This document shows, in pieces, positions 5,750 through 27,710 of a stretch of DNA of 64,000 nucleotides. Source of the stretch: Rhodothermales bacterium (GTDB lineage Bacteria > Bacteroidota > Rhodothermia > Rhodothermales > UBA10348); assembly GCA_024711125.1 (NCBI GenBank), contig JANJTM010000025.1:1-64000 (forward strand), written 5' to 3'. Every line of letters starts with the position of its first letter. The first letter of the stretch is position 1. The notes beneath the pieces were generated by a model, which was not told the DNA's origin, searched no databases, and saw nothing but the letters and a program-made list of their open reading frames with translations. The position numbers and the translations under genes are program-made.

Positions 5750-5849
5750 GGAATGTCGGGTCGCGACGGCCACGGTCGTCGCGGATTTCGTTCGGGTCCA
5801 CGTTCCGACGCAAAAGTCGCGCCGGAACGAGGGCGTCAGGCGCGGGATC

Positions 5850-6197
5850 TCAGGAGGAGAAGCTGGAGCCGCAGCCGCAGGTGGACGTGGCGTTGGGGTT
5901 GTCGAACGTGAAGCCGCGGGCCTGCAGCCCGTCCTGGTAATCGACGGTCGTGCCCATGAGGTAGAGCCCGTGGCGGCGATCCATGTAGATCGTGATGCCG
6001 TCCACGTCGAATGCGATGTCCTGCTCGCGCTTCCGGTCGAAGCCGAGCATGTAGCTCATTCCGGAGCAACCGCCGCCGCGAACGCCGACGCGGAGCGCGA
6101 AGCCCTCCGGCAACGGCTTGGCGGCCATGATCTTGCGGATTTCGCCCGCGGCGGTTTCGGTGAGGCGGACTGGGGTTTCGAGTTCGGTCGCTTGCAT
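5850..6197 (-). CDS. A-type iron-sulfur cluster carrier (IscA/ErpA/SufA family)
   Basis: A 115-residue HesB/IscA-fold protein that carries and inserts Fe-S clusters into apoproteins. The three conserved ligand cysteines are C44 in GGGCSGMSY and C107/C109 in CGCGSSF near the C-terminus, exactly the family spacing. It stands upstream of clpC on the same strand and downstream of the lamin-tail gene (50-bp gap). Clients in the neighbourhood could include FixX and PFOR, but that is inference. Which subtype (ErpA, IscA or SufA) it is cannot be settled without a tree. Confidence 0.93.
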   Translation of the reverse strand: MQATELETPVRLTETAAGEIRKIMAAKPLPEGFALRVGVRGGGCSGMSYMLGFDRKREQDIAFDVDGITIYMDRRHGLYLMGTTVDYQDGLQARGFTFDNPNATSTCGCGSSFSS

Positions 6198-8404: not shown

Positions 8405-8517
8405 GGTAGTTCTCCGTTTACCTGCCGCTATAGAGTCGCCAGCCACCACTTCGCAACGCCCATCTTGCAGGGAAGGTGCCGGTGGGCTACCTATCGTCCA
8501 CACCGGCGGGGAAAACC

Positions 8518-10220: not shown

Positions 10221-11447
10221 TCAGCCGCGGGAGCGCGCAAGGCGCTCGAAGACCGAGAAGAAATACCCGGCGGCCCGCGCGAGCGCCCGCTCGTCGAGGT
10301 CGAAGCACGAATCGTGCAGGGGGTGGCTCGTATCGGGGCCCGTCGACGTGCCGATCCGGATCAGGGCTCCGGGCACACGTTCCTGGTAGAACGCGAAGTC
10401 CTCGGCACCCATGCTCGGCAGCGGGATGTCGAAGACCGCGTCCGGCCCGAACTCGGCCCCTGCGACGTCGCGCGCGTGTTCCACCAGGGCCCGGTCGTTG
10501 GTAACCGCCGGAGACCCGTGATCGAACTCGGCCACGATCCGGGCTCCGTAGAGCGAGGAAAAAGCGCCACAGGCATCCTCGACGAGACGGCGGATGCGTT
10601 CGCGGTCGTCGTTGACCGTGCACCGCAGGGTGCCCCCGAACTCCGCGGAAGAGGGGATCACGTTGTACGCCTCCCCGGCGTGGAACCGCGTCACCGTCAG
10701 CACGGCCGGATTGCGTGCATCGGTGCGGCGGCCGACCTGCTGATAGAGGCTGTTCAGGAGCTGCGTGGCCACCCAGACCGTGTCGACCGCGAGGTGCGGC
10801 CGGGCCGAGTGGCCGGTAGCGGGACCCGCCACGCTCACGCGGAAGCGGTCGGCCGATGCGGTCGCCGCGCCCGTGATGAACCCGTATCGACCGGTGGCCA
10901 GGGTCGGGTCGACGTGCGACGCGTAGACGGCTTCGACGCCGTCGAGGACCCCGTCGGCGATCATGAGCGGAGCCCCGGTGGGCACGCCCTCCTCGTTGGG
11001 CTGGAAGAATACGCGAAGGGTGCCGCGGAGGCGATCCTTCCCGGCGTGGGCCAGCAGCGCGAGTCCGACGGCGATCGAGGCGTGCGCGTCGTGACCGCAG
11101 AGGTGTGCGACCCCCGGCACCGTGGATGCGTAGGGAACCCGTTTCGCGTCCTGGATGGGAAGCGCGTCGATGTCGGCCCGGTACGCCACCGTCGGACCGG
11201 GTCCGGCGCCCGGCAGGTCCACGTAGAACCCGGTCCCGGCCAGGGGACCGACGGGATGCAATCCGTTCGCCTCGAGGAGCGCCCGCAGGAAAGCCGACGT
11301 GGCGTGTTCCTGCAGGCCGAGCTCGGGGTGCCGATGCAGGTGGCGGCGCAGGGCCGGGAGCAGGCTTTCGAGCGGCCCGCCGGGCACCGGCCCCAGGCCG
11401 ACGAAGACACGCGAGGAGACGGTAGAAACGGATGCGGGTTGGGTCAT
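10221..11447 (-). CDS. M20 family metallo-amidohydrolase (N-acyl amino acid / hippurate hydrolase type)
   Basis: A 408-residue zinc amidohydrolase of the M20D group (hippurate, N-acyl-amino-acid and IAA-conjugate hydrolases). Landmarks are HLHRHPELGLQE near the N-terminus, metal-site segments CGHDAHASIAVGLALL and NEEGVPTGAPLM, the dimerisation (lid) domain, and MGAEDFAFYQERVPG near the end. The start at 11447 overlaps the stop of the upstream vWA-like gene as ATGA, which indicates translational coupling and argues against the in-frame start at 11477. No signal peptide is evident, so it is probably cytoplasmic. It is the last gene of a four-gene minus-strand set; the likely job is amino-acid salvage from N-acyl conjugates, but the substrate is not predictable. 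Confidence 0.93.
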   Translation of the reverse strand: MTQPASVSTVSSRVFVGLGPVPGGPLESLLPALRRHLHRHPELGLQEHATSAFLRALLEANGLHPVGPLAGTGFYVDLPGAGPGPTVAYRADIDALPIQDAKRVPYASTVPGVAHLCGHDAHASIAVGLALLAHAGKDRLRGTLRVFFQPNEEGVPTGAPLMIADGVLDGVEAVYASHVDPTLATGRYGFITGAATASADRFRVSVAGPATGHSARPHLAVDTVWVATQLLNSLYQQVGRRTDARNPAVLTVTRFHAGEAYNVIPSSAEFGGTLRCTVNDDRERIRRLVEDACGAFSSLYGARIVAEFDHGSPAVTNDRALVEHARDVAGAEFGPDAVFDIPLPSMGAEDFAFYQERVPGALIRIGTSTGPDTSHPLHDSCFDLDERALARAAGYFFSVFERLARSRG

Positions 11448-13594: not shown

Positions 13595-13602
13595 GGGCCC
13601 CG

Positions 13603-15312
13603 TCAGCGGGCGTGGACGAGAGAGCCCGAGGATTCCCGCCCACCGGCGGTGAAGCGGTACAGCACCACGCCCGCGGGCAGCGCGGTCCCGTCGAGGTCGA
13701 TCTGCCACGTGCCCGCACCCGCGGAGGGCACGGCGAGGTCGGCGACGCGACGGCCCAGGAGGTCGTAGAACTCGACTCGGGCAGGCTGCATCGAGGTGTC
13801 GGTGGGAGCGTACAGGACCAGGCGGTCGCGGAACGGGTTAGGCCAGGCGTGAAGCTCGCTCCGGGTCGAAGCGTGTTTCGGGCGCTCCACGGAGGTGACG
13901 CGGGCGAGCGCGGCCTCGGCGTTCACGATGCCCCAACCGAGGCTGTTGTCCGGAGACTGCGCCTGGCTGGCCGTGGCGCGAAGCAGGTCGCGGATCTGGA
14001 GCGGGGTGAGGCTCGGGTCAGCCTGGAGGAGGAGCGTCACGATGCCCGAGACCATGGGGGCCGCGAAGGAGGTGCCGTTTCCCCGCACGTAGCCCGTGCC
14101 CGAATTGGCCACGTACACGCCGAGTTGGAACGATTCCCCGGCCATGGCCGCCACATCCGGCTTGGTTCGGCCGTCTGCGGTCGGTCCGTACCCGCTGAAA
14201 CTCGAACGAACGAGATTGGCCGAGACGCCGCCGACCGTGATCACCGACGGTCCGTCGGCCGGGGAGGTGACGTAATACCAGCACAGCTGCGGGGAAGCGC
14301 AGCCCTCGTTCGCCGCCGCCACGACCATGACGACGCCGAGGGAGGCGGCGTGTTCGGCCGCGCGCGTGGTGACGGCGGTCTTTCCGTCCATCTCGGCATA
14401 GACGTAACTGCGCTGGCCCGCGTCGAAGACCGAGTAGCCCAGCGAGACGTTGACCACATCCACGCCCTCCGCCTCCATCCATTCGAGGCCGGCCACGAAG
14501 TTGTCCTCTTCCTGGTTGGTCTCGCTGAGGTAGTATTCGGTTCGCGCGTGCAGGATTTCGGCGCCCCAGGCCGGCCCGACCAGGTTGCCGTCGTGGTACC
14601 CCGCGGCGACGCTCAGCACCATCCGGGCGTGCCGGTTGCCGTCGTCCGGCAGCCCCGTGAAGTCCCGCGACGAGAGGAATCGGCCCGAGGTCACGAGATG
14701 GCTGAGCGCAGGATGTGTGGACGGATCTCCCAGCCCGGTATCGATGATGCCGAGTCGTACGCCCTGGCCGTTCCATCCGGCCTGGAGCGGAGCGACGGCG
14801 CCGGCGACCGAAAGTTGGGTCAGCGAAGGGCCGAAATCGACGAGTCCGCCCGGCCGGCCGGAATCGACGAGGGTGACCGGGCCGTCGACGTCGCCGACGG
14901 GCACGGCCGACCCGACCGGACGGATTCCGTTGACGAAGGGAAGCGCGGAGACGACGGCCGCCTCCTCCTCCGACATCCAGGCGCTGACCGCGTTGAGCCA
15001 CCGGCTGCGCACGAGCGGGTCGATGCCCATCGATTGCAGTCGGCGCACGTACGCCCCCGAGACCTCGCGGTCCAGGTCGGCGTCCGCGCTCGGGGCGCCC
15101 CGGCCGAGACGGCGCTGGAGGGCCCGGGCCGCCACGGGCACCGGAGCGGTCTTGCCGGCGACGTCGACCTTGTCCCTGAGAAACACCCAGTACTTGATCG
15201 AGTCGGGGCCCGTCGGACGCGGCACGGTCCCGGCGCTGACCGGCGCAGGCCCGACGAGAAGAGTCGGGGCCAGGAGAAGCAGCGCCGCGACGAGGATGCG
15301 GATAGGTGGCAT
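13603..15312 (-). CDS. Secreted S8 (subtilisin-like) serine peptidase with T9SS type A sorting domain
   Basis: A 569-residue exported protease. Signal peptide: residues 1 to about 28 (ILVAALLLLAPTLLVG). Catalytic triad: D191 in GIIDTGLG, H228 in NRHARMV and S415 in GNGTSFAAPMVSG; the oxyanion asparagine is probably N335 (AAANEG). The last 85 residues form a type IX secretion sorting domain (LHAWPNPFRDRLVLYAP, VEFYDLLGRRVADL, LPAGVVLYRFTAGG), so it should cross the outer membrane through the T9SS and be surface-anchored or released. Segment 30-125 looks like an I9-type propeptide. It is followed by the vWA-like gene after 8 bp. This gene is the best single indicator of a T9SS-bearing phylum. 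Confidence 0.94.
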   Translation of the reverse strand: MPPIRILVAALLLLAPTLLVGPAPVSAGTVPRPTGPDSIKYWVFLRDKVDVAGKTAPVPVAARALQRRLGRGAPSADADLDREVSGAYVRRLQSMGIDPLVRSRWLNAVSAWMSEEEAAVVSALPFVNGIRPVGSAVPVGDVDGPVTLVDSGRPGGLVDFGPSLTQLSVAGAVAPLQAGWNGQGVRLGIIDTGLGDPSTHPALSHLVTSGRFLSSRDFTGLPDDGNRHARMVLSVAAGYHDGNLVGPAWGAEILHARTEYYLSETNQEEDNFVAGLEWMEAEGVDVVNVSLGYSVFDAGQRSYVYAEMDGKTAVTTRAAEHAASLGVVMVVAAANEGCASPQLCWYYVTSPADGPSVITVGGVSANLVRSSFSGYGPTADGRTKPDVAAMAGESFQLGVYVANSGTGYVRGNGTSFAAPMVSGIVTLLLQADPSLTPLQIRDLLRATASQAQSPDNSLGWGIVNAEAALARVTSVERPKHASTRSELHAWPNPFRDRLVLYAPTDTSMQPARVEFYDLLGRRVADLAVPSAGAGTWQIDLDGTALPAGVVLYRFTAGGRESSGSLVHAR

Positions 15313-15361
15313 GGGAGGGAAGGAGTCGGCCGGGATGAACCCTCGAGCCGGGGCGCGGATC

Positions 15362-16132
15362 CTACCGTACGGCGAGCCCGCGCCCGTCGAATGCGCCCGG
15401 AAGCAGGGTTCGCACGTCGGCGGTCTCGGGTGGGCGGTCGCCGCGGTCCATGATCACCTGCGCGTCCGGCGCCAGTTCGACGAGGAGCTGCCGGCACGCG
15501 CCGCACGGAGTGCCGTCCGGATCCCGTAGACACGTCAGGACCACCCGGAGCGCGGGAGGGCAGCCCCACGTGACGGCCGTCGACAGCGCGTTCCGCTCGG
15601 CACACAGGATGGAGTTCCAGTCCGGATGCTCCACGTTCACTCCCGGAAGGCCGCGGCCGTCGGGCAGCACGACGACACAGCCCACGGGGAAGGCAGACTC
15701 GGGCACCCAGGCATGCCCCGCCACCCGCCGTACGAGGGATACGGGGTCTGTCGCCGTGCGTCCGATGAACGGGTCCACGACCGCCCCGACTTCGGGCGTT
15801 TCCACGTCGCGGTTGATCCACACGGCGCCGTCGACCCGCTCCCAGCTACCGGGCAGGCCCCGCACATAGGCCCCCGTGGCCGCCGTGGCGGGGCGTCCCG
15901 CCAGCGCGAGGGCGGCAAGTTGCCTGTACCCCAACGCCACGGCGGTCGTCACGGCATTCTGCGACGCGGGAATGACCAACGAGAACGAGGCGCTTTCGAC
16001 CCGGACCCCGGGCACGAGCGAGCCGTCGGCGGCCAGCGCCACGGCCGCCTCGGCCTGCCCGGAATAGGGTACGTGGGCGCGGGGGAGGAGGGCGCGCGCG
16101 GTGTCGAGCAGAGCCTCGAAGCGTGCGGTCAT
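15362..16132 (-). CDS. cdd: Two-domain cytidine deaminase, N-terminal copy degenerate
   Basis: A 256-residue protein with two tandem cytidine-deaminase-like domains; cytidine deaminase converts cytidine/deoxycytidine to uridine/deoxyuridine in salvage. The second copy is intact: zinc ligands C177 (in ILCAERNAL), C210 and C213 (in PCGACRQ), and catalytic glutamate E179. The first copy keeps the fold pattern (VPYSGQAEAAVALAADGSLV, VESASFSLVIPASQNAV) but its CAE is replaced by PAS and it has no PCxxC, so it cannot bind zinc. In E. coli-type enzymes the degenerate copy is C-terminal; here the order is reversed. ATG 16132 begins typical MTARFEALLDTARALL; earlier in-frame codons run into the tRNA promoter area. 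Confidence 0.88.
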   Translation of the reverse strand: MTARFEALLDTARALLPRAHVPYSGQAEAAVALAADGSLVPGVRVESASFSLVIPASQNAVTTAVALGYRQLAALALAGRPATAATGAYVRGLPGSWERVDGAVWINRDVETPEVGAVVDPFIGRTATDPVSLVRRVAGHAWVPESAFPVGCVVVLPDGRGLPGVNVEHPDWNSILCAERNALSTAVTWGCPPALRVVLTCLRDPDGTPCGACRQLLVELAPDAQVIMDRGDRPPETADVRTLLPGAFDGRGLAVR

Positions 16133-16184
16133 GGTCTGATGGGATTGCGGCAAAGGTACGAGCGCAGAAGCGGGCGGGCGCGGC

Positions 16185-16214
16185 TTGCCGCACGGGCGCG
16201 CCATGGCCTAGCTT
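16185..16214 (+). promoter_or_regulatory. Candidate promoter of tRNA-Leu
   Basis: TTGCCG (16185-16190) and TAGCTT (16209-16214) are separated by 18 bp, and the -10-like box ends 15 bp before the tRNA 5' end. The box followed by GA fits the TAnnTT(T)G type of -7 element described for Bacteroidota. Prediction from sequence only. Confidence 0.4.
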
Positions 16215-16229
16215 GAACCCGTCAAACGG

Positions 16230-16315
16230 GCCGGGGTGGCGGAATCGGTAGACGCAGCGGACTTAAAATCCGCTTCCTCCCTGGAGGAGTAGGGGTTCGA
16301 GCCCCCTTCCCGGCA
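16230..16315 (+). tRNA. tRNA-Leu(UAA)
   Basis: An 86-nt tRNA. The acceptor stem GCCGGGG pairs with TCCCGGC (one G-T pair), with discriminator A at 16315. The anticodon arm is GCGGA-CTTAAAA-TCCGC, giving anticodon TAA, which decodes UUA. A long variable arm (TCCTCC...GGAGGA type) and the T arm GGGG-TTCGAGC-CCCC confirm the leucine class. The 3' CCA is not encoded (CGA follows), so it must be added enzymatically. Confidence 0.97.
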
Positions 16316-16325
16316 CGAAGGGCGG

Positions 16326-16850
16326 TCAGGACCGCTCGAGGGTCAGCGCCAGCGGGTCGTCACCGCTCAATCGGACGGCCCCGTCCCAGATGTCGGGCGG
16401 GTACAGCGGGCCCGACAGGGGGTCGGGGATGCGGAGTCGATACGCCGACCCGTCGAAGGTGCCGGTGTGTCGCGCCATGACCCACGCGCATCCCTGGAAA
16501 TCGAGCGTTACCCGGCCGTCGACCAGTCGACCTTTCGCCGTGAATCGCTGCGTGGCAGACGCCGTGTTGGTCTCGCCGAGCCACGAGCGGTGGATGCGGG
16601 TGGTCCACGAGCAGTTGCCCTGCCCCGAGATCTCGCCGTCCTCCACCGTCAGCGTGAGGCTTCCGCCGATCGTGCCCTGGTAATTTGCGTAAAAGCCCTG
16701 GTTCTCGTCGGCCACCACGTGCAGTTCGAAGGCGACGGGTTCGATGCGGAAACTGCCGGCCGGACCGGTCACGGGCGCGGAACCTCCGGGGTCGGAGGGG
16801 CTGGAATCACAGCCGGCGAGCAGGAGGAACAGGAGCGGAACGAACCGCAT
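16326..16850 (-). CDS. Hypothetical lipoprotein
   Basis: A 174-residue putative lipoprotein of unknown function. The N-terminus MRFVPLLFLLLAGCDSSPSD has a lipobox (LLAGC) with the acylated cysteine near residue 14, followed by a Ser/Pro/Gly linker. The rest is beta-rich (YQGTIGGSLTLTVEDGEISG, FTAKGRLVDGRVTLDFQG) and holds two cysteines (in GNCSW and QGCAW) that could form a disulfide. Start 16850 places the leader first; the frame is open further upstream but reads as nonsense there. It is divergent from the small lipoprotein at 16990 and convergent with tRNA-Leu. A short GC hairpin near 16321-16335 overlaps its stop and may end both transcripts. Confidence 0.75.
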   Translation of the reverse strand: MRFVPLLFLLLAGCDSSPSDPGGSAPVTGPAGSFRIEPVAFELHVVADENQGFYANYQGTIGGSLTLTVEDGEISGQGNCSWTTRIHRSWLGETNTASATQRFTAKGRLVDGRVTLDFQGCAWVMARHTGTFDGSAYRLRIPDPLSGPLYPPDIWDGAVRLSGDDPLALTLERS

Positions 16851-16989
16851 GGGACGCGGGGATTGATCACGGAAGAGCGAATCGTGTCCGCGGCAGGCGG
16901 TTCCCGACTCCGGCGGGAACCCGGATCGCGATCGGGCGATCCATCCTTGATGTCCGCCGAGACCCCTCACCCCTCACACCCGGTCGGCC

Positions 16990-17289
16990 GTGCGAAACCG
17001 CCTCTTTTTCCTTGGCGTCCTCGTCCTTTCGGCCTGCCGTCCAGCCGCCGAGGGCAGGCTGCCCGAAGCCGGAACCGTCGTCGTCGACCGGGAGAGCGGC
17101 GTACGATACCGCGTCACGTGGTCGGGCAACACGACCTACAACCAGGGAGCCTGCCCGGAGGTCAATACCCTCTGCGTGCACCTCGTCGGAATGCCCGAGG
17201 CCGGCGCGACGGGCGCCGAGGCCATCGCTGCGGAACTTGCGGTTCCGTTCTCGGAATACGGCACGCGGTTCGACGCGTCGCGGCGGTGA
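16990..17289 (+). CDS. Small hypothetical lipoprotein
   Basis: A 99-residue putative lipoprotein with a GTG start. The leader MRNRLFFLGVLVLSACRP carries a lipobox (VLSAC). The mature part has two further cysteines (QGACPEVNTLCVHLVG) that may pair. No family is recognised. It runs convergently into the caspase-like gene at 17373, with a strong hairpin between them. Its position next to an exported protease cluster makes it worth testing as a partner or substrate, but nothing in the sequence shows this. Confidence 0.6.
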   Translation: MRNRLFFLGVLVLSACRPAAEGRLPEAGTVVVDRESGVRYRVTWSGNTTYNQGACPEVNTLCVHLVGMPEAGATGAEAIAAELAVPFSEYGTRFDASRR

Positions 17290-17310
17290 TTCCGTCGTCT
17301 CCGTGAACGG

Positions 17311-17347
17311 GAACGGCCGCCCGACACCCGGTGCCGGACGGCCGTTC
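17311..17347. terminator. Bidirectional hairpin between convergent genes
   Basis: A 9-bp perfect GC-rich stem, GAACGGCCG (17311-17319) with CGGCCGTTC (17339-17347), closes a 19-nt loop in the 83-bp gap between the small lipoprotein gene and the convergent caspase-like gene. It lacks a long T tract on either side, so factor-independent termination is plausible but not proven. Confidence 0.5.
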
Positions 17348-17372
17348 CGCCACGAATCGCGTGGGGTCCGGA

Positions 17373-19148
17373 TCAGAGGCCGAAGAACTCGGCGACCGTC
17401 ATTCGGCCGGCCTGTCCTTCGAGCTGCACCGTCTGGGAATTGTCCTTCGCGGCCGAGTAGTTGGACGTCTTCGGTCGTACGTCCTCCATGATCTGCTCCC
17501 ACGTGGCGCCGGTGCCCAGTTCCGTCATCGCGCGGTACAGGTAGTACGTGAAGACGCTGGCCTTGCGGCCGACCTCGGGCCACACCTCGCTGGACGCGAG
17601 GGCGTACTCGCTGGAGGCGGCGGCGCTCAGCAGCAGGTGGCCGGCCGGTCCGTTCACGATGTCGTTGTTCACGTTGTTCGGATCGGGGGCGGGCGCGTCC
17701 TTGGACGACACGACGGTGAGGGGGATCTGGGTCGTGGCCTTGATGTCGGCGAAGTTCACCTCCTTGATGGGGAAGTCGCCGCCCGCGCCGCGGGTGCCGG
17801 TGCCGGAGTGGCAGGCATCGAGAACGACGAGAACGCGGTCGGTAGCCAGGCGATTGGCGAGCGCGCCGATCTCCTCGTCTACCAGGACCGAGCCCTCGAA
17901 CTCGTTGCCCCAGATGTAGATAGCCTCGTCCTTCCCGTCCGTCTCCACGTCCGTGCCGAGGTTCTCGTCGAGCTGGGTGCCGTGACCCGAGTAGTAGAAG
18001 ACCGCCGCGCCGTTCGGGCCCGCCTGTCCCAGGTGACGCTGGAAGGCCGTGATCACGTGGTCGCGGAACGCCTCCTGGTCCGTGATCATCCGGATGTTCT
18101 CCTCGGGGAAGCCGAGCTGCTCGACGAGCATCTGGCGGAAGACCATCACGTCGTCCACGGAGCTGGGCAGGTCGCTGCCCGTTCCGGGGTAGTCGTCGAT
18201 ACCGACCAGCAGGGCGTACTTGCCGTTCGGATCGCCGCCCGTCGGGTAGCGTGCCGCGTAATCGACCGGCGGCGTGATGCCCACGGCCGTGATGTAGTTG
18301 CCGGTGACGGCCGCGACCGAGGTGGCGGCGATGACGTACGTTCCGCCTTCCTCCACCCGCCATTCGGCACGGGCGTCGAGACCGCCGCCGGAGTCGTCAT
18401 CCGAGGCCAGCGTGATGATGTCGCCGTTGACGATGCGGCCGATGTACAGCAGCGCGTCGAATTCGGTCGAGCGCACGACGGTCGTGATGAGCGAGCCGGC
18501 CTGCACGTCGAACGTGTAGAGGTCGGCGAACACGCCGTCGGCGAGCTGGCGGTCGCCGGAGGCGAGCGAGCCGGTGACGACCGAGTTGACCGCGATCGGC
18601 TGAAGTCCCGACGAATCGACCTGCGGCCGCGTCGAAGGGGTATTCGAGGCGGCCGACAGGCGGTAGGTGCCCTGCGCTCCCGGTGCCACGGAATTGGCGA
18701 TGACGGCGTACGTACCCGTCTCGGGCAGCGTCACGGTCACCGTCGAGTTCATGTTGCCGGCCGAGTCGTCGTCGGACGCGACGTCGACGGCGTCCTCCAG
18801 CGTAGCCGAGCGCAACAGGCGAACGATGAGGTACGTGTCGAAATCGTCGGAGGTGAGGGTGAACGTGACCTGCTCGCCGGCCGTCCCGGCGTACGGCCAC
18901 ACGTCGAAGTACGTCTTGTCGATGAACGTGCGGTCCGATGCGGTAAGCGTGCCGCTGACGGTGGTACCGGCGGCCAGCTGGTCGAGGGCCTTGACCGCGG
19001 CCAGCGGCTTGGCGGCGGGATCCACCGACGTCTTGTCACCGATGGCCTTCGTCGGCTCGGCGGGGGGTTCCGGGCTCGAGCAGGCGGGGACCAGGAAGGC
19101 CACCGCGAGCAGCAGGGCGGAAAGGAATCGCAGGGAGGGTCGGACCAT
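17373..19148 (-). CDS. Caspase-family (C14) lipoprotein with two PPC domains
   Basis: A 591-residue exported cysteine protease of the metacaspase-like C14 group. It starts with a lipoprotein leader (LLLAVAFLVPACSS, acylated C23). Two PPC (bacterial pre-peptidase C-terminal) beta-sandwich domains lie at about residues 60-165 and 180-290, each with the pattern F-D-x-Y/L-L near FDTYLIVR and FDALLYIGR. The caspase domain runs from about 308 to the end: strand KYALLVGIDDY, catalytic H389 in YYSGHGTQ and C446 in VLDACHSG. It should be anchored in the periplasm or outer membrane. It is divergent from a second caspase-like gene with a large dyad between them. Substrate specificity is unknown; known prokaryotic relatives usually cut after Arg/Lys. 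Confidence 0.92.
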   Translation of the reverse strand: MVRPSLRFLSALLLAVAFLVPACSSPEPPAEPTKAIGDKTSVDPAAKPLAAVKALDQLAAGTTVSGTLTASDRTFIDKTYFDVWPYAGTAGEQVTFTLTSDDFDTYLIVRLLRSATLEDAVDVASDDDSAGNMNSTVTVTLPETGTYAVIANSVAPGAQGTYRLSAASNTPSTRPQVDSSGLQPIAVNSVVTGSLASGDRQLADGVFADLYTFDVQAGSLITTVVRSTEFDALLYIGRIVNGDIITLASDDDSGGGLDARAEWRVEEGGTYVIAATSVAAVTGNYITAVGITPPVDYAARYPTGGDPNGKYALLVGIDDYPGTGSDLPSSVDDVMVFRQMLVEQLGFPEENIRMITDQEAFRDHVITAFQRHLGQAGPNGAAVFYYSGHGTQLDENLGTDVETDGKDEAIYIWGNEFEGSVLVDEEIGALANRLATDRVLVVLDACHSGTGTRGAGGDFPIKEVNFADIKATTQIPLTVVSSKDAPAPDPNNVNNDIVNGPAGHLLLSAAASSEYALASSEVWPEVGRKASVFTYYLYRAMTELGTGATWEQIMEDVRPKTSNYSAAKDNSQTVQLEGQAGRMTVAEFFGL

Positions 19149-19255
19149 GGAGGTCGGGTGTTGGTTGGAAGAGTACCGTGCTTGCAGACCGGTATCGGGA
19201 GGATACGTGGCGGCGGTGCAACGCGATAAGGTAAAGAGCGTTCACGGATTCTTGA

Positions 19256-19279
19256 AAGGGACACGATATCGAGTCCCTT
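19256..19279. promoter_or_regulatory. 24-bp near-perfect dyad between two divergent caspase-like genes
   Basis: AAGGGAC (19256-19262) is mirrored by GTCCCTT (19273-19279), and between them lies the perfect palindrome CGATATCG (19264-19271). Only the two bases flanking the core break the symmetry, so 22 of 24 positions match. It sits 55 bp upstream of the plus-strand gene and 108 bp upstream of the minus-strand gene. A TACCTT box on the minus strand at 19228-19233 could be the -10 element of the latter. It could be an operator for a dimeric regulator of both genes, or an RNA hairpin in a leader. Confidence 0.45.
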
Positions 19280-19333
19280 CTCCGTTACCGTTCCACGTCT
19301 CCAACGCGACAGTCCCGTCGATTCGTGTGCCGG

Positions 19334-21652
19334 ATGGACAAGGCAGCCCTCTTCTTCCTGCTCGCGCTTGCGGCCGCCGTGCCCATCGCGGCGCAACCGT
19401 CCACCGCCCCGGTGCGTCGCGCGCTGCTCGTCGGCATCGGAGAATACGCGGAACCCGGAACCCCGGCGTCGGCGAATGCCCTGTCGACGCGCGGCCTCGG
19501 CAATCTCGAGGGGCCGGTCCATGACGTCGAGTCGATCCGGAGCCTTCTGGTTTCCCGGTTCGGATTCCGGGCCGACGATATCGTCGTGTTGACCGACGGG
19601 CAGGCGACACGGGCGGCGATCCTCGACGCGATCTCCCGTCACCTGGGTTCGGGGCGCCGGGGGGACCAGGCGTTCTTCTTCTATGCCGGGCACGGATCGT
19701 GGGTGGAGAACTCTCGCTCGTCCGAGGCCGATCGAAGGGACGAGACCATCGTCCCCGCGGACGCGGCCCGCGGTGTCGCCGACATCCGCGACAAGGAGTT
19801 GCGGGCTCCGTTCCACGAAATGCTGGAGCGGGGTCTCGACGTGACGCTGGTCTTCGACGCCTGCCACTCGGGGTCCATCACGCGGGCCGTGGAGACGGGG
19901 CTCGAGCGATCGGTGCGGCCGGCACCCGGCGACGTGGCCGACGATCGGGCATGGCCGGCGCCGCCGCAGGATCATCCGAGTGGACGTGCGCTCGTGTTCT
20001 CGGCGGCGAGGGACGACCAGAAGGCCCGGGAATTCCGAACCGAGAGCGGAGTGTCGGCGGGGGCGTTCACGTGGTCTTTCGTCGAAGCGCTGCGCGAGAC
20101 GCCGGGAGGGGTTCCCGCCGAGTACCTCTTCCAGCAGGTTCGTGCGCGCATGAAGGCGCGCGGATTCGAACAGGACCCCGTATTCGAGGGAGGAGACGCG
20201 CGAAGGAGGGAACCGCTGTTCGCCGATCCCGGCGGAGCCCGGTTCACCGGCACCGTCATCCCCGTGCTGACCGTCGGGCCCGGCGCGGGAGTCCTCGTTC
20301 AGGCCGGGTGGGCCCTCGGGCTCGCACGGGGCGCCGAGCTGGTGTCGCTGGAGGACCGGTCGGTACGCGTGCGCATCGACGAGGTCATCGGGCTGTCTCG
20401 GGCTCGCGGCACGCTCGTGGCGGGCGCAGCCTCGGCGCTCGGCGAGGGCACGCTGCTGACGGTGGACCGGTGGGCCGCCTCGGCCGGCAGGGCACTCCGG
20501 CTTCACCTGCCGCCCGCCGTTCCCGACGCCGAGGACGGGGAGGCCGTCTACCGGCGGCTGTCCCAGCTGCGGACCGGAACCGGGTTCCGGTGGGTCGAGG
20601 ATCCGTCGATCGACCGCCCGACGCACCTCGTCGAATGGGACGGAGAGGGCTGGTTCCTGGCCGGCCCCGGAACGGGTCGCAGGGCGCTCGGTGTCGACCC
20701 GTCGGTCGAGGCCGTCCTGTCGGCCCTGCAGGGGCAGTCCGGGGTGCGCCTGTTCGTGGCGATCCCTCCGTCCTCGGAACTCGACTCGGCGGTTCGTCGC
20801 GAGTTCGCATCGTCCGTATCGGGCGTGGCGCTCTCCGACGCGGTGCAGGGGGCCGACTACTCGCTGGTCGGCACGGTTGTTCGTGGGGAGCGGAAGTACT
20901 ACTGGATGCACCGCGGCGTGCTCGGTCCGTCCGGTACGGGTGGGCTGGCTCCGACCACCGAGCCGGCGGGCGGCCTGGATCGGACCGTCGCGAGGGCACT
21001 GGCAGTGCAGGCGGGTCGCCTGGCGCGGGCGGCGGGATGGCTGGCACTCACGCCGCCGTCGTCCGGCGCCGTTTTTCCGTACCGGATCACGGGTTTCGAA
21101 CGCGTGGATCGTCCAGGGCGCGCGGGCGCGACGGATACGCTCGCGTGGGGAGGGCAGTACCGGGTGATCCTGGAAGCGCCGAGGGCCGCCCTGGAGACCG
21201 CTGCCCGTGCTGCGATCGACGGCGGCACCGCGCGGTGGCATTGGTACCTGTTCGCGATGGACCGCCAGGGTAACGGTACCCTGCTGTATCCGCGGGCGTC
21301 GAACCAGCCCAACCAGGTCAACCTGCTCGCCCGGGACGCGGGGGAACGGACGCGCATCGCGGTGCCCGACGGACGGGCGTGGCTCTTCAGCCCGACGGCC
21401 ACGGTTGCCGGGGCGCGCGACGATTTTGCGACGCTGTTCCTGCTGGCCTCGGCCGAGGTACTTCCGGACCCGGTCGCCGTGCTGAATTTCACGGGGGTGG
21501 GAAGCCGGGCGGGGGAGGAGGCACCCGGCGGCGAGGGTAGCCTGTCGGCCGTGCTGTTCGAGCTGGGGGGCGGAACCCGCTCGTCCAGCCTCTCGGCACC
21601 CGTGACGTGGGATCTGCAGAAGGCACCGCTGATCTCGGCCCCCGCCCGGTGA
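19334..21652 (+). CDS. Caspase-family (C14) exported protease with C-terminal DUF4384
   Basis: A 772-residue exported caspase-like protein. The signal peptide covers residues 1 to about 21 (ALFFLLALAAAVPIAAQ). The caspase domain follows at once (RALLVGIGEYAE), with catalytic H120 in FFFYAGHGSW and C177 in LVFDACHSGS. A long middle region with a repeated-strand look (300-590) has no recognised family. The C-terminal part carries a DUF4384 pattern (GGQYRVILEAPR, FAMDRQGNGTLLYPR, LLASAEVLPDP). ATG 19334 is preferred over a GTG three codons upstream because it opens the leader cleanly. Caspase plus DUF4384 is a known bacterial pairing of unknown function. It ends 9 bp before the convergent third caspase gene. 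Confidence 0.92.
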   Translation: MDKAALFFLLALAAAVPIAAQPSTAPVRRALLVGIGEYAEPGTPASANALSTRGLGNLEGPVHDVESIRSLLVSRFGFRADDIVVLTDGQATRAAILDAISRHLGSGRRGDQAFFFYAGHGSWVENSRSSEADRRDETIVPADAARGVADIRDKELRAPFHEMLERGLDVTLVFDACHSGSITRAVETGLERSVRPAPGDVADDRAWPAPPQDHPSGRALVFSAARDDQKAREFRTESGVSAGAFTWSFVEALRETPGGVPAEYLFQQVRARMKARGFEQDPVFEGGDARRREPLFADPGGARFTGTVIPVLTVGPGAGVLVQAGWALGLARGAELVSLEDRSVRVRIDEVIGLSRARGTLVAGAASALGEGTLLTVDRWAASAGRALRLHLPPAVPDAEDGEAVYRRLSQLRTGTGFRWVEDPSIDRPTHLVEWDGEGWFLAGPGTGRRALGVDPSVEAVLSALQGQSGVRLFVAIPPSSELDSAVRREFASSVSGVALSDAVQGADYSLVGTVVRGERKYYWMHRGVLGPSGTGGLAPTTEPAGGLDRTVARALAVQAGRLARAAGWLALTPPSSGAVFPYRITGFERVDRPGRAGATDTLAWGGQYRVILEAPRAALETAARAAIDGGTARWHWYLFAMDRQGNGTLLYPRASNQPNQVNLLARDAGERTRIAVPDGRAWLFSPTATVAGARDDFATLFLLASAEVLPDPVAVLNFTGVGSRAGEEAPGGEGSLSAVLFELGGGTRSSSLSAPVTWDLQKAPLISAPAR

Positions 21653-21661
21653 CGACCGGCC

Positions 21662-22876
21662 CTACTTGGCCGCCTTCCGCAGGACGTCGTACCGTCCTAT
21701 CGCGTTGCCGCGCATGGTGTCGTCTTCGTTCGTCGACGGAAGGTCCGACGGGAACGCGTCGAGGAACGTCTTCCAGATCGCGAGCTTCTCGCGCCCCGTC
21801 ACGTCCGGGTCTTCGTCGTAGCTGACGGCGTTGTCGTAGGCCTGTGTCATGAAGAGCAGCAGGGCCTTTTCGGGCGGAGAGGGCTTGCGCAGGGCCGGCG
21901 AATTCTCCCGGTTGTACCCAAGCCACTCCCGGTATTCCTTGTCGGCCACGGACGGCTGCTCGAGCGCCTGGAGCGAGAAAACGAAGTCGCCCTGGCCTAG
22001 ACCGGCCAGCATGAGCTTTCCGAACTGCGGCCGCTGCTGGCCACCGCCCTCGTTGAGCACGGCGGCGCGCACGTATCCGCCGAGTTCCTCGCCGGTCAGG
22101 AATCCGTCGCCGAACGTGCCGGCCTCGCCCTGGAGGGCCCGAACCAGGTGCTGTCGGAACAGGCTCTCGTCGGGGACCTTCTGCCCGGCCGAGCCCGAGG
22201 TGATGACGGACCGTGCGGTCAGCGTGAGGAGGTCGGCGACGGCCGGAGGAGGCGTGTCGTCGCGCTCCACGCCGACGTCCTTGAAGATGGTCCCGGCGAA
22301 ACACGCGTCGAACAGGAAGAGCGCGTGCCGGGACTGGATGCGCTGCGCGTAGCTGGAGAACTCGAAGATGGGGAGGAGCGACGCCCGGAAGGCCACCGAG
22401 TCGGCCGCCGGGGACGGCGTGTCGACGGGTACCAGGTATCCCTGCTCCACGCCCTCGAGATTCGGCACGGTGACCCCGTGGCCGGCATAGTAGAAGATGA
22501 CCGCGCTGTCCTTGCGCTGGGCTTTCGTCTTGACGAATCGAGAGATCACGGTCTCCATCCGGTCCGAGGGAAGATCGCGATGCATTTCGACGTCGTATCC
22601 GTGCCCCTTCAACGCCTCCGACACGGCCTCGATGTCGTACGGGACTCCATCCAGGCGCCGGAACGCGTTTCCGTCGTACTCCGCATTCCCGATCAGCAAC
22701 GCGTATCGCTCCGTGGGCATGGCCGGGGCGGAAGAGAGCGGCGCCGCCACGATGCCCTGGGCGCCGGCGGTCCCACTGCCGGTCGCGGCCAGCAGGAGCA
22801 GCAACACGGCTCCGTGCAGCCGTCGGGCGTGCCGTCGGGAAACGGGTCGGGCGGGAAGGGGAAAACGGGAGAACAT
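21662..22876 (-). CDS. Caspase-family (C14) exported protease, stand-alone type
   Basis: A 404-residue exported caspase-like protein. The leader is long and basic, then hydrophobic (HGAVLLLLLAATGSGTAGAQ, ending near residue 40). The catalytic domain starts at YALLIGNAEYDG; H133 lies in IFYYAGHGV and C192 in LFDACFAGT, so the usual HSG after the cysteine is FAG. A C-terminal helical region of about 130 residues follows without a recognised domain. ATG 22876 was chosen because it opens the leader; the open frame continues upstream across the intergenic gap. It is convergent with the DUF4384 caspase gene and divergent from the PPC-repeat gene, giving four alternating genes in a compact cluster. 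Confidence 0.9.
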   Translation of the reverse strand: MFSRFPLPARPVSRRHARRLHGAVLLLLLAATGSGTAGAQGIVAAPLSSAPAMPTERYALLIGNAEYDGNAFRRLDGVPYDIEAVSEALKGHGYDVEMHRDLPSDRMETVISRFVKTKAQRKDSAVIFYYAGHGVTVPNLEGVEQGYLVPVDTPSPAADSVAFRASLLPIFEFSSYAQRIQSRHALFLFDACFAGTIFKDVGVERDDTPPPAVADLLTLTARSVITSGSAGQKVPDESLFRQHLVRALQGEAGTFGDGFLTGEELGGYVRAAVLNEGGGQQRPQFGKLMLAGLGQGDFVFSLQALEQPSVADKEYREWLGYNRENSPALRKPSPPEKALLLFMTQAYDNAVSYDEDPDVTGREKLAIWKTFLDAFPSDLPSTNEDDTMRGNAIGRYDVLRKAAK

Positions 22877-22985
22877 GCGTGCGGATCCGATGCTCCGGGG
22901 GGCGCGTTCATGACCGGACCGGCTCGACAACCACGGAGCGGGCCGGGGGTTTCCAACGCACTTCACGCCCTTTCGAGGCCACGCC

Positions 22986-23678
22986 ATGAGACTGTCGACG
23001 GTATCGGTGCTCCTTGTCGCCTACGTGCTGCCTGCCGCCGCGCAGACCACGCAGGGCACGCTTTCGTCCGGTGACAATCTCCGGGCCGAGGGCATCTATT
23101 ACGATGCGGTAACCGTGCAGATCGACCGCCCGTCCGAGTTCACGGTCCGGATGGAATCGCAGGCGTTCGACACGTACCTGATCGTGCGGTCGCCGTCAGG
23201 CGTCGAGACGGTCAACGACGATTACGACGGACAGAGCGTTTCGCAGGTCGACATGCTCGCGACCGAGACGGGTGCCTGGACCGTCTGGGCTTCGGCGTAC
23301 GGTTCCGGCATGGAGGGGGCCTACACGTTGACCGTCACGAGGGGGGCCGAGGTGGAGATCGAGACCGTCGAAGGCCGTCTCGACTACCGGGATCCGGTGG
23401 CGCTCAAGGGAGAGTTCTTCGATACCATCGCGCGCGACCTTGCCGGCGATACCCAGTACATATTCGAACTCGTGTCGCTGGGCTACGACGGATACCTCGT
23501 CGTCACGTCGCCGACCGGCGAGGTCCAGCGCAACGACGACTCCGGATCGACCCGCCTCTCCCGCGTCGGCCCCTTGTCGGCACCGGCCGGAAAGTGGACG
23601 ATACAGGTTACCAGTGCATCCGCAGGCGAGCAGGGGGCGTACGACCTCAACATCGTCAGGATCAAGCCGAAGAAGTAG
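22986..23678 (+). CDS. Secreted protein of two PPC repeats
   Basis: A 230-residue exported protein made almost only of two PPC-type beta domains. The signal peptide is MRLSTVSVLLVAYVLPAAAQ. Repeat 1 (about 21-115) has FDTYLIVRSPSGVETVNDDY; repeat 2 (about 120-227) has YDGYLVVTSPTGEVQRNDDS; each ends with a W-T-V/I strand and a G-A-Y-x-L strand. The first repeat shares the string FDTYLIVR with PPC domain 1 of the caspase lipoprotein at 17373, which suggests common origin and possibly a shared binding role. No catalytic motif is present. A strong terminator follows. Whether it binds substrates, surfaces or the caspases themselves is unknown. Confidence 0.88.
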   Translation: MRLSTVSVLLVAYVLPAAAQTTQGTLSSGDNLRAEGIYYDAVTVQIDRPSEFTVRMESQAFDTYLIVRSPSGVETVNDDYDGQSVSQVDMLATETGAWTVWASAYGSGMEGAYTLTVTRGAEVEIETVEGRLDYRDPVALKGEFFDTIARDLAGDTQYIFELVSLGYDGYLVVTSPTGEVQRNDDSGSTRLSRVGPLSAPAGKWTIQVTSASAGEQGAYDLNIVRIKPKK

Positions 23679-23701
23679 GGCCTTCTCGACGTCGAGCTTT
23701 C

Positions 23702-23757
23702 GGGGTCCGGCGGATCGGGGAGATGGCACCCGGCCCGCCGGACCCCTCGCCTTTTGC
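23702..23757. terminator. Strong hairpin terminator between convergent genes
   Basis: A 12-bp perfect stem, GGGGTCCGGCGG (23702-23713) with CCGCCGGACCCC (23735-23746), has a 21-nt loop and is followed on the plus strand by TCGCCTTTTG. It ends the PPC-repeat transcript and may also serve the convergent oligopeptidase gene. Confidence 0.8.
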
Positions 23758-23762
23758 GCGAA

Positions 23763-25907
23763 TCAGTTCGCGATCCCGGCGAGGTCGAGCAGGAACGCGT
23801 ACTGGAACGCGGTCTCCCGGAACCGCTCGAACCGGGCAGACGCTCCGCCGTGCCCCGCGCTCATGTTCGTCTTGAGCAGGAGCACGTTTTCGTCGGTTTT
23901 CATGGCCCGCAGACGGGCCACCCACTTCGCGGGCTCCCAGTACTGCACCTGCGAGTCGTGCAGGCCGGTGGTTACCAGGAGGTTGGGGTATCCGCCCGCA
24001 ACCACGTTGTCGTACGGCGAGTACGCCTTCATGTAGGCGTAGTAGGTGGGGTCGTTCGGGTTGCCCCACTCGTCGTACTCTCCCGTCGTGAGCGGAATCG
24101 AGTCGTCGAGCATCGTGGTGACGACGTCCACGAACGGCACCGCCGCGATGACACCCTTCCAGCGGTCCGGCCGCAGGTTCACCACGGCGCCCATCAGCAG
24201 GCCCCCCGCCGATCCTCCCTGCGCGAAGACGAGGTCCGGTGCCGCATAGCCTTCCGTAACCAGCGCGTCGGCCGCATCGATGAAATCGGTGAACGTATTC
24301 ATCTTGCGCAGCAGCTTGCCGTCCTCGTACCAAGGACGCCCCATCTCCTGGCCGCCGCGGATGTGCGCGATGGCGTATACGAAACCCCGATCGACCAGGC
24401 TGAGCCGGGCCGCCTGGAACGTCGGATCGGTACTGCTGCCGTAGGACCCGTAGCCGTAGAGAAGCAGTGGATTGTTGCCTCGCTCGAACGAATCCACGCG
24501 GTAGACGAGCGAAACGGGCACCCTCACCCCGTCCCGCGCCTCGATCATCAGCCGCTCCGAGCGGTAATCGGCCGGGTCGAAATCGCCCAGTACCTCGTCC
24601 CGCTTCAGCAGCGTGCGTTCCCGGGTGCCCATGTCGTACTCGTATGTCGAACTGGGCGTCGTGAGCGAAGTGTACACGAATCGCAGTACGCGCGAATTCA
24701 CGTCCGGATTGGCGTCGATCCGGGCAACGTAGGCGGGGTCATCGAACGAGACGTCGTGGGCCGCTTCCCCGGACCAGGGAGCCACCCGCAGGCGCACGAG
24801 TCCCGCCTCGCGTTCGGCCGTGACGAGGAAGTCCGTGAACAGTTCGAAGCCGTCGAGATAGACCTGGTCGCGGTGATCGACGACCGTCGCCCAGCGCGCG
24901 GGGTCGCTGGGCCCGGCCGGCGCCGACATCAGCCGGAAGTTCGTCGCTCCACCCCAGTTCGTGCGGAAGTAGAACCGGTCTCCCAGGTGGTCCACGTCGT
25001 ATTCGTGTCCGCGCATCCGCGGGGCGATGACCTGGAACACGCCGTTCGGGTCATCCGCGGCCAGGAAGCGCACCTCGGTCGACAGGGTCTGCCCCGACAC
25101 GAGGAAGAGGTAGCGATCAGACCTGGAGCGTTGCACGTAGACCGAGAACGTGTCGTCGGTCTCCTCGTAGACGAGCACGTCTTCCGACGCGGGCGTGCCG
25201 ACGACGTGCTTCCAGACCTGGTACGAACGCAGGGTCTCGGGGTCCTGCCTGGTGTAGAAGACCGTGGCGTCGTCGTTGGCCCATGCGACGTTGCCGGTCA
25301 CGTCGGGGATGCCCTCGTCGAGATCGTTTCCGCTCGCGAGATCGCGGAATCGCAGGTGGTACTTGCGCCTTCCGACCGTATCCACGGCGTAGGCGGCGCG
25401 GCCGTGCGACGGGCTGACCGTCATCTGCAGCGCGAAATACCCGTGCCCTTCGGCCATGGCGTTGCCGTCGAACAGGACCGTTTCCGCGGCGTCCAGGCTC
25501 CCGGGCTTCCGGCACCAGAGGGGGTACTGTCCACCCACCACGTACCGTGTGTAATACCAGAAGTCGTCGCGGCGCACGGGGGCCGACGAGTCGTCTTCCT
25601 TGATGCGTCCACGGATCTCTTCGTAGATGCGCTCCTGGAGCGCCTCGGTATGCCGCATGATCGCCTGGGTATAGGCGTTCTCGGCCTCGAGGTAGGCGAT
25701 CACCTCGGGGTTCTCCCGCTCCCTGAGCCAGTAATACTCGTCCACCCGCACGTCGCCGTGCATGGTGAGCTCTACGGGGCGCTTCTCTGCCACGGGCGGT
25801 TCGGGACCGCGGTTGCATCCGGTGGCGAGGGCAAACAGCAGCACGAGGGGAAGGGTCGAAAGTCGTGACACGGGTAGGACGGCCGGGCCGCGTTGAATGG
25901 ACGGCAT
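23763..25907 (-). CDS. S9A serine peptidase, oligopeptidase B-like lipoprotein
   Basis: A 714-residue prolyl-oligopeptidase-family protease closest in pattern to oligopeptidase B (trypsin-like cleavage of short peptides after Arg/Lys). A lipoprotein leader ends at C31 (LLFALATGC). The propeller domain begins with VDEYYWLRERENPEVIAYLE, typical of OpB. Catalytic residues: S566 in FAQGGSAGGLLMG, the aspartate in GLHDSQVQYWEPAKW, and the histidine in MSAGHGGASARF. The start is the ATG giving MPSIQRG, the only one that keeps the leader. It is transcribed downstream of gamma-glutamyltransferase (99-bp gap), and together they could break down peptides and glutathione-type compounds in the periplasm. 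Confidence 0.93.
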   Translation of the reverse strand: MPSIQRGPAVLPVSRLSTLPLVLLFALATGCNRGPEPPVAEKRPVELTMHGDVRVDEYYWLRERENPEVIAYLEAENAYTQAIMRHTEALQERIYEEIRGRIKEDDSSAPVRRDDFWYYTRYVVGGQYPLWCRKPGSLDAAETVLFDGNAMAEGHGYFALQMTVSPSHGRAAYAVDTVGRRKYHLRFRDLASGNDLDEGIPDVTGNVAWANDDATVFYTRQDPETLRSYQVWKHVVGTPASEDVLVYEETDDTFSVYVQRSRSDRYLFLVSGQTLSTEVRFLAADDPNGVFQVIAPRMRGHEYDVDHLGDRFYFRTNWGGATNFRLMSAPAGPSDPARWATVVDHRDQVYLDGFELFTDFLVTAEREAGLVRLRVAPWSGEAAHDVSFDDPAYVARIDANPDVNSRVLRFVYTSLTTPSSTYEYDMGTRERTLLKRDEVLGDFDPADYRSERLMIEARDGVRVPVSLVYRVDSFERGNNPLLLYGYGSYGSSTDPTFQAARLSLVDRGFVYAIAHIRGGQEMGRPWYEDGKLLRKMNTFTDFIDAADALVTEGYAAPDLVFAQGGSAGGLLMGAVVNLRPDRWKGVIAAVPFVDVVTTMLDDSIPLTTGEYDEWGNPNDPTYYAYMKAYSPYDNVVAGGYPNLLVTTGLHDSQVQYWEPAKWVARLRAMKTDENVLLLKTNMSAGHGGASARFERFRETAFQYAFLLDLAGIAN

Positions 25908-26006
25908 AACCTACGTGCCCGCCGGGCCGGGTCCTACCGTAGTTGACCGCAAATCGTTGTGCGCGATTCCCCTGCGGGAACGGTGCGGCACGGACCGGAC
26001 CGCGGA

Positions 26007-27710
26007 TCAGTAGCCGGCCGATCGGGCGTCGAATGCCCGCGAGTCGGCGGCGCCGTACCGGATGCCCGATTCCGGGTCGATCCAGATGCCGTGCGCGTGG
26101 CCCTGCTGTCGATAGAACCAGACGTCGTGCCCCATCATGCGGTACAGGCGGATCGTGTCGGGCGAGAAGCCGGGCGACTCCATGCGCGTGCGATCCGGGA
26201 GCCACTGGTGGTGGATGCGCGGTGCTTCGACCGCTTCGGCCACGTTCATGCCGTGGTCGATCATGTTGAGGATCACCTGGAGCGTGGTGTTGATGATCGT
26301 GCGGCCGCCCGGGCTTCCGATCACGAGCCATGGTCTGCCGTCCTTCGCAACGATCGTGGGCGTCATGGACGAGAGCATGCGCTGGCCGGGCCGGACGAGG
26401 TTGGCGTTCGTTCCGATCGTGCCGTCGCTCGTGGTGCGGCCCGGGATCGCGTTGAAATCGCCCATCTCGTTGTTGAGAAGGAATCCCGTCCCGTCGGCCA
26501 CCAGGCGCGAGCCGTAGCCGTATTCCAGCGTGTACGTGAGCGAAACGGCGTTGCCGTCGGCGTCGACGACCGAAAAATGCGTGGTCTCCTCGCTCTCGTG
26601 CGCCAGGTAGGCCGACGAGAATGCCGAGGAATCGCTGGGGGAGGCGGCAAAGAGGTCGATCCCCGCGCGCAGGCGGGCCGCGTATTCCTTCGAGATCAGC
26701 CGGTCGATCGGCATGTCGGGATTGAACGCGGGGTCGCCGATATGCTCAGCCCGATCGGCGAACGCGCGGCGCATGGCCTCGGTCAGCAGGTGCAGGTATT
26801 GCGCCGAGTTGTGCCCGGCTTCCGCCAGGTCGAAGCCCTCGAGGATGTTGAGCATCTCGGCGATCGCGATGCCCCCGGAGCTCGGCGGAGCCATGCCGTA
26901 GACGTCGTATCCGCGGTAGGTCGCGTGGATCGGCGGCTGCTCCACGGCGTGGTAGGCCGCCATGTCGGCCTCGGTGATGATCCCGCCGTGCTTGCGCATC
27001 CAGTCGGCGAGCAGGCGGGCGGTCTCGCCCGTGTAGAACCCGTCGCGGCCGTGGTCACGCACGCGCTCGAGCACGCCGGCCAGGTCGGGCTGGCGGAAGG
27101 TCTCCCCGGGCTCGTACAGGTCGGTGCCGTTCTTCAGGAACGCCTTCCGCGTACCCTCGAACAGGGGGCGATCGTTCCGCTGGAGGCCGCGGAGGAAGCC
27201 CTGCATGTCCCACGTGGACGGGAATCCGTCGCGGGCGAGGCGCACGGCGGGCTCCACGAGGTCACGCCACGGGAGCTTTCCGAGACGCTGGTGGGCGAGC
27301 CAGAGTCCGGCTACGGTGCCCGGCACGCCCACCGACAGCGGGCCCTCGTGGTTCGAGTCGTCGACGATCTCCCCGTCCTCGCCGAGGTACATGCGTTCGT
27401 GGGCCGCCGCCGGCGCCTTCTCGCGGAAGTTGAAGGTCGTCGTGTGCCCGTCGGCTCCGTGGTAGACGAGGAAGCCCCCTCCGCCGACGTTGCCCGCGAC
27501 GGGATACACGACCGCGAGAGCGAAAGCCGTCGCGATCGAGGCGTCGACGGCGTTGCCGCCCTGCTTCAGGATGTCCCGACCGACCTCGGAGGCCAGGTAG
27601 TGACTGGTCACCACCATACCTTTGCGCGCCGGCGCGGGCGTGCGTCCCGACTGCGCGACAGCCGGAGTTACGAGGAGGAGGACGGCGAGGAGCGCGGCGA
27701 GGCGACGCAT
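26007..27710 (-). CDS. ggt: Gamma-glutamyltransferase
   Basis: A 567-residue periplasmic Ntn-hydrolase that cleaves glutathione and other gamma-glutamyl compounds. The signal peptide is LAALLAVLLLVTPAVAQ. The conserved start of the large subunit (GMVVTSHYLASEVGRDILKQ, GGNAVDASIA) is present. Self-cleavage is expected before T376 in the EETTHFSVVD motif, which becomes the nucleophile of the small subunit. The later family segments (NNEMGDF, MLSSMTPTIV, SPGGRTIINTTLQVI) are intact. Length is usual. A TATATTTC box lies about 25 bp upstream of the start. It precedes the oligopeptidase gene on the same strand. Confidence 0.96.
   Translation of the reverse strand: MRRLAALLAVLLLVTPAVAQSGRTPAPARKGMVVTSHYLASEVGRDILKQGGNAVDASIATAFALAVVYPVAGNVGGGGFLVYHGADGHTTTFNFREKAPAAAHERMYLGEDGEIVDDSNHEGPLSVGVPGTVAGLWLAHQRLGKLPWRDLVEPAVRLARDGFPSTWDMQGFLRGLQRNDRPLFEGTRKAFLKNGTDLYEPGETFRQPDLAGVLERVRDHGRDGFYTGETARLLADWMRKHGGIITEADMAAYHAVEQPPIHATYRGYDVYGMAPPSSGGIAIAEMLNILEGFDLAEAGHNSAQYLHLLTEAMRRAFADRAEHIGDPAFNPDMPIDRLISKEYAARLRAGIDLFAASPSDSSAFSSAYLAHESEETTHFSVVDADGNAVSLTYTLEYGYGSRLVADGTGFLLNNEMGDFNAIPGRTTSDGTIGTNANLVRPGQRMLSSMTPTIVAKDGRPWLVIGSPGGRTIINTTLQVILNMIDHGMNVAEAVEAPRIHHQWLPDRTRMESPGFSPDTIRLYRMMGHDVWFYRQQGHAHGIWIDPESGIRYGAADSRAFDARSAGY

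Follow-up and report, generated by a model that had tools for sequence, protein, structure and literature searches.

Three caspase-like proteases of different architecture, clustered with a PPC-repeat protein in a Rhodothermales genome, raise the question of whether such neighbours form one system or several that have come to share a site. Little is known of what bacterial caspase homologues do; they are usually discussed as cytoplasmic effectors of cell death or defence. An earlier note, made from the sequence alone, had described all four proteins at this locus as exported and proposed that they act together in the envelope. The genes, called here CAS1, CAS2, CAS3 and PPC, lie in the window, the 64,000-nucleotide stretch of DNA that we analyzed, and an open-reading-frame check placed them on alternating strands (Table 1); since the strands alternate, the four do not make up a single operon.

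Table 1. Genes and divergent gaps of the caspase locus, in window positions.
Feature	Position	Strand	Description	Basis
CAS1	17373..19148	-	Predicted lipoprotein, 591 aa; two PPC repeats, then Peptidase_C14 (p20 and p10-like end); H389/C446	Pfam, PPC profile, alignment, model
CAS1/CAS2 intergenic region	19149..19333		Divergent, 185 bp (up to the ATG at 19334)	Sequence
CAS2	19334..21652	+	Predicted secreted; N-terminal Peptidase_C14 (H120/C177) and C-terminal region of ~470 aa	Pfam, full-length orthologues, model
CAS3	21662..22876	-	Predicted secreted Peptidase_C14, separate clade; H133/C192 from the ATG at 22876	Pfam, alignment, tree, C-terminal profile, class search
CAS3/PPC intergenic region	22877..22985		Divergent, 109 bp	Sequence; divergent layout also in G003 (L014)
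PPC	22986..23678	+	Predicted secreted protein, two PPC-type repeats	Pfam, profile, alignment, relatives, synteny

The basic description of the locus held. All three caspases matched Pfam Peptidase_C14 far above the cut-off (E = 1.6e-19 for CAS1, 7.2e-21 for CAS2 and 1.3e-24 for CAS3), and the His/Cys dyad was intact in each of them and in every aligned relative. The dyad positions in Table 1, which the note had also given, are right when CAS2 and CAS3 are read from their later ATGs (19334 and 22876): a GTG at 19325 is also a possible start for CAS2 and changes its numbering to H123/C180, and the CAS3 frame is open up to an ATG at 22987, from which the dyad becomes H170/C229. Pfam PPC matches were weak, lying under the Pfam cut-off in both CAS1 (E 2.1e-5) and the PPC protein (E 1.1e-3), and an HMM seeded on the PPC protein found two repeats in each. 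Two finer points of the description fell away. The motif FDTYLIVR had been pointed out as common to CAS1 and PPC; because FDTYLIV is close to the PPC consensus, this is no sign of partnership, and FDTYLIVTLP also occurs on a contig of family f12 (L057). Likewise, the DUF4384 label given to CAS2 found no match to PF14326 in that protein even at E ≤ 10, and only sub-threshold ones in its orthologues (E 3e-4, 7e-4 and 0.1). The CAS2 C-terminal region is related to that of four orthologues, and the C-terminal extension of CAS3 is common to two distant relatives (G032 and G053).

CAS1 and CAS2 resemble metacaspases (C14B; metacaspase 9, GSU0716) in their p20 sequence, in a DxCH-type context of the catalytic Cys and in an acidic DE after the catalytic His, and by analogy with that family they may cut after Arg or Lys. 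The likeness extends to the fold of the CAS1 model (mean pLDDT 79.4; PPC and catalytic parts mostly >85, linker 449-487 of low confidence). Residues 306-591 superposed on Arabidopsis metacaspase 9 with Z 24.7 and rmsd 3.0 over 238 aligned residues, with both the p20 and the p10 fold present, and the model matched Geobacter GSU0716 (PDB 3bij) with Z 22.8; in this model the CAS1 fold is intact, as are the dyads of all three proteins in sequence. The first Foldseek row for CAS1, a clostridial ColG collagen-binding domain with a low TM-score (0.17/0.39), fits a PPC-type beta-sandwich and proves nothing. The CAS2 model was poorer (mean pLDDT 63), weak beyond the catalytic part and with a C-terminal region too weak to fold; the best PDB matches of its caspase part were again metacaspases. 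Unlike those metacaspases, CAS1 and CAS2 are apparently exported, and they carry additional parts, PPC repeats in front of the protease domain in CAS1 and a long C-terminal region behind it in CAS2.

Apparent signal sequences stand at the N-terminus of all four proteins, judged by eye and hydropathy without a signal-peptide program: a lipobox VPA-C in CAS1 (LLG-C, judged in the same way, in its orthologue from genome G100), ..PIAA-Q in CAS2, ..TAGA-Q in CAS3 and ..AAA-Q in PPC. A surface location, as first suggested, fared less well. No match to the T9SS sorting tail TIGR04183 was detected in any of the four at E ≤ 0.1, whereas a neighbouring S8 protease gives a weak match (E 0.0026), so the periplasm or outer membrane appears likelier than secretion by the T9SS route. 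Scans of the locus for promoters and terminators gave nothing above shuffled sequence, with no sigma-70 consensus promoter in the CAS1/CAS2 gap, and the repeats in 15000-27000 were just chance-like or domain-derived.

The cluster is real and non-random. A genome-wide search of the 3.79-Mb assembly (99.3% complete) found exactly three C14 genes, all at this locus, and three genes placed at random would fall within ~5.3 kb with P ~6e-6. Nor is such clustering peculiar to this genome. Within the order, 18 of the 43 C14 genes in genomes with at least two have a further C14 gene within 10 kb (0.54 expected), as do 21 of 65 among the matches listed in the phylum sample (0.88 expected), which puts C14 genes roughly 24-33 times above random expectation; these are rough figures, counted by hand with a common genome size of 4 Mb assumed and with related genomes that are not independent. 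Multi-metacaspase operons, Bacteroidetes included, are already known, numbering 20 among 217 metacaspase operons in Asplund-Samuelsson et al. 2012 (PMC3501461), where operon neighbours include sigma factors, hydrolases and proteolysis genes. Those loci likewise hold several bacterial C14 genes side by side, but there the genes share an operon, whereas here successive genes lie on opposite strands and two divergent gaps link them. The term PPC is absent from the text of PMC3501461, and a CAS1-CAS2 pair is not described in its operon section; in the open-access literature, we found no paper with both 'Rhodothermota' and 'caspase'.

Adjacency, a common fold and 28% identity between CAS1 and CAS2 over the C14 domain are what one might expect of recent tandem duplicates. 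However, a maximum-likelihood tree of 64 C14 domains put the three caspases in three separate supported groups, and for each the nearer relative stands in some other genome, not at this locus. The partner of CAS1 is a G100 protein (100/99), and those of CAS2 are four full-length orthologues (100/94); CAS3 joins a G003 protein (100/100), and this pair belongs to a group of 11, some of whose members are Bacteroidota proteins that do not come from the order. Their N-terminal and C-terminal regions are also unrelated. Recent duplication therefore has a negligible probability; the three genes were brought or kept together, not duplicated locally.

If the genes were gathered, the question becomes which of them travel together. 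Our co-occurrence survey covered all C14 loci found in 114 genomes of the order, minus one on a very short contig. In one genome of another family (G100, family f13), a PPC-PPC-C14 lipoprotein and a full-length CAS2 lie divergently, ~2.2 kb apart with two genes between them. The proteins are 43% (CAS1; L045:13257-15311, lipobox kept) and 39% (CAS2) identical to those of the window, and because G100 keeps the CAS1 architecture, the lipobox and the full-length CAS2 at these identities, the association is an old one. Full-length CAS1 was found in the window and G100 only, among the genomes of the order and 394 genomes of the phylum, with CAS2 beside it in both; the adjacency of the two rests on this one independent genome besides the window's. 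Full-length CAS2 orthologues occur in G008, G011, G075 and G100, with none outside the order in the sample of 394 phylum genomes, and C14 searches showed that CAS2 homologues also occur alone elsewhere. G100 has a third C14 gene, a C14-Sel1, and one of the genes between its CAS1 and CAS2 is sigma-70-like (TIGR02937 E 6e-6, below cut-off). The wider G100 run (L045:1592-15311) consists of CHASE2, DUF900 hydrolase, C14-Sel1 and CAS2, followed divergently by the sigma-70-like gene, a transmembrane protein and CAS1. A PPC-like end suggested by eye for L045:7724-8458 was unsupported by the PPC profile or Pfam.

Where CAS1 is missing and the flanks are long enough to show its neighbours, CAS2 keeps other company. 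In G008 and G011 it is the sole C14 gene and lies directly between a TPR-CHAT gene (CHAT domain E 5e-52 and 5e-55) and an M48 peptidase gene, both of whose products are predicted to be exported. This tight run of TPR-CHAT, CAS2 and M48-TPR peptidase genes (L008:575-9733 and L013:5007-14223) recurs in two genera, its members 53%, 51% and 63% identical, and may constitute an envelope protease operon. Immediately upstream of CAS2 in G075 is a DUF900 hydrolase gene truncated by the contig end, and a DUF900 gene is also part of the G100 run; the window genome's own DUF900 and CHAT genes lie elsewhere, with no link to the locus shown. These neighbourhoods are suggestive of a swapping of the caspase-fold partner of CAS2, CAS1 in one setting and TPR-CHAT in the other. 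A bolder reading would make CAS2 the marker of a new envelope protease relay, in which an exported caspase is invariably coupled with another exported protein of caspase fold (CAS1 or TPR-CHAT), with PPC proteins for docking or sensing, forming an initiator-effector pair outside the cytoplasm; we consider this unlikely.

The other two genes form a looser association. Within the family of the window genome, G003 has CAS3 and PPC arranged divergently as in the window, at 70% identity; that assembly is 70% complete and in short contigs, so little can be read into its lack of CAS1 and CAS2. Beyond this close relative, CAS3 has two at a greater distance (G032 and G053), and its homologues are found alone as well. 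PPC orthologues are present in seven further genomes of the order (G009, G018, G031, G034, G035, G046 and G055) with no C14 gene in the flanks examined, four of them (G009, G031, G034 and G035) lacking any C14 gene at all, so PPC is not an obligate partner of caspases. In G009 and G018 it adjoins the same GGT gene that is found downstream in the window. PPC-only genes do meet caspases in another setting: in three genomes of family f12 (G080, G081 and G082), two of them stand directly 5' of a PPCx4-C14 gene (L056:1479-6534, L057:4187-8581 and L058:5027-9758), and the association of PPC-only proteins with caspases thus seems to have arisen at least twice. Like CAS1, the PPC-caspases of families f12 and f4 have PPC repeats (one to five) ahead of the C14 domain, but this domain belongs to another clade, and they are alike in layout rather than orthologous to CAS1. 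Outside the class, the nearest C14 relatives of CAS3 are C14-FGE-sulfatase proteins of Bacteroidota (L041-L044; 38-40% identity), some of which cluster, with as many as four C14 genes together; the members scanned carry an FGE-sulfatase domain, which CAS3 lacks. One such cluster (L043:4504-15098) holds four C14 genes within 11 kb, of which the three scanned all have FGE-sulfatase domains; the context of the catalytic His is SGHR in 4504-6114 and ALHG in 7923-9683.

Could the site itself account for the gathering? The window reads M20-X754-S8-CDA-tRNA-Leu-[slot]-PPC-S9-GGT, X754 being a 754-aa protein. The caspase-free genome G009 has a reversed match, GGT-PPC-[slot]-CDA-S8-X754-M20, whose slot contains an FtsX-like permease and an alpha/beta hydrolase (both named by eye) and a SecA-like protein. 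Since G009 keeps the flanks and has other genes in the slot, the caspases occupy a variable slot in a conserved gene block. A tRNA-Leu(taa) gene (window 16230-16316) lies beside CDA, and does so in G034, G046 and G055 as well. We weighed a collecting site as the explanation, with unrelated exported proteases accumulating without a common pathway in a variable slot by a tRNA, within a hydrolase-rich block (S8, S9, GGT and M20 all flank the slot). The C14 clusters elsewhere in the order, which have quite different members, would agree with this. However, CAS1 and CAS2 also pair up in G100, and there we detected none of the genes that flank them in the window, so that a collecting site does not explain the pairing; caspase clustering is general rather than bound to a site; and neither an integrase nor a duplicated tRNA end was seen. 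We regard accumulation at a collecting site as possible but doubtful. Insertion of a mobile element at tRNA-Leu was considered and rejected: the 3' end of the tRNA is not repeated in the window, no integrase was noticed, and the tRNA stands beside CDA in relatives too.

Several other genes of this block deserve mention. X754, encoded next to the S8 protease (window 11444-13708, minus strand), has no Pfam, NCBIfam or PADLOC match and is 46-47% identical in relatives. The SecA-like protein of G009 (761 aa, L019:11077-13362) is encoded beside CDA. A small lipoprotein-like open frame at window 16960-17290 (plus strand; RNRLFFLGVLVLSAC..) is by eye like L019:10687-11073, which lies beside that SecA-like gene.

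The caspase domains invite two further readings. All three proteins match the PADLOC 'caspase' profile (E 1.6e-20, 4.7e-24 and 2.2e-10), as effectors of an anti-phage defence module would, but this match follows from the common C14 domain. The apparent export signals on all four proteins set them apart from cytosolic defence caspases, and no sensor, nucleotide cyclase, gasdermin-type or CRISPR gene was recognised in a PADLOC scan of ten neighbours, whose sole match, the S8 (subtilase-type) protease with the weak T9SS tail, is conserved in caspase-free relatives. A defence role is unlikely on present evidence, and we assign it a very small probability. Export signals alongside caspase-type domains would fit a device for regulated cell death or kin-directed killing that acts from the envelope, and a surface role in cell death or fratricide has been proposed for extracellular metacaspases in the discussion of PMC3501461. 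Yet the neighbours checked included no recognisable gene of pore-forming, toxin or immunity type, and the partners of CAS2 elsewhere are proteases and hydrolases; a killing device is improbable.

The proposal of one system of four divides along these lines. Two pairs recur, CAS1 with CAS2 in G100 and CAS3 with PPC in G003, both divergent, and CAS2 lies beside other predicted exported proteases in G008 and G011. The whole set was found in no other genome searched among the C14 loci of the order, PPC occurs in seven genomes without caspase neighbours, and CAS2 and CAS3 are also found alone; as a complete set, the four genes are peculiar to this lineage.

The reading we prefer, with a confidence just short of even, is that two sub-modules which existed beforehand, CAS1 with CAS2 and the looser divergent pair of CAS3 with PPC, make up an exported protease locus. 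CAS1, a PPC-PPC-metacaspase lipoprotein, and CAS2, a soluble exported metacaspase, probably work together, most likely in one pathway of the periplasm or outer membrane. CAS1 would be the membrane-anchored member, its PPC repeats binding a ligand or substrate, and either protease might activate the other by cutting after Arg or Lys. The CAS3-PPC pair would have joined the first in this lineage, in the variable slot. Its likeliest role would be to cleave envelope or secreted proteins in a regulated manner; suicide in response to phage is less likely.

The locus shows one way in which such a cluster can come about, namely the gathering of unrelated C14 lineages, not duplication. More generally, a small, apparently exported set, in which one pair is kept across families and caspase-fold partners are seemingly interchangeable, offers a compact setting in which to test caspase-type proteolysis in the bacterial envelope.
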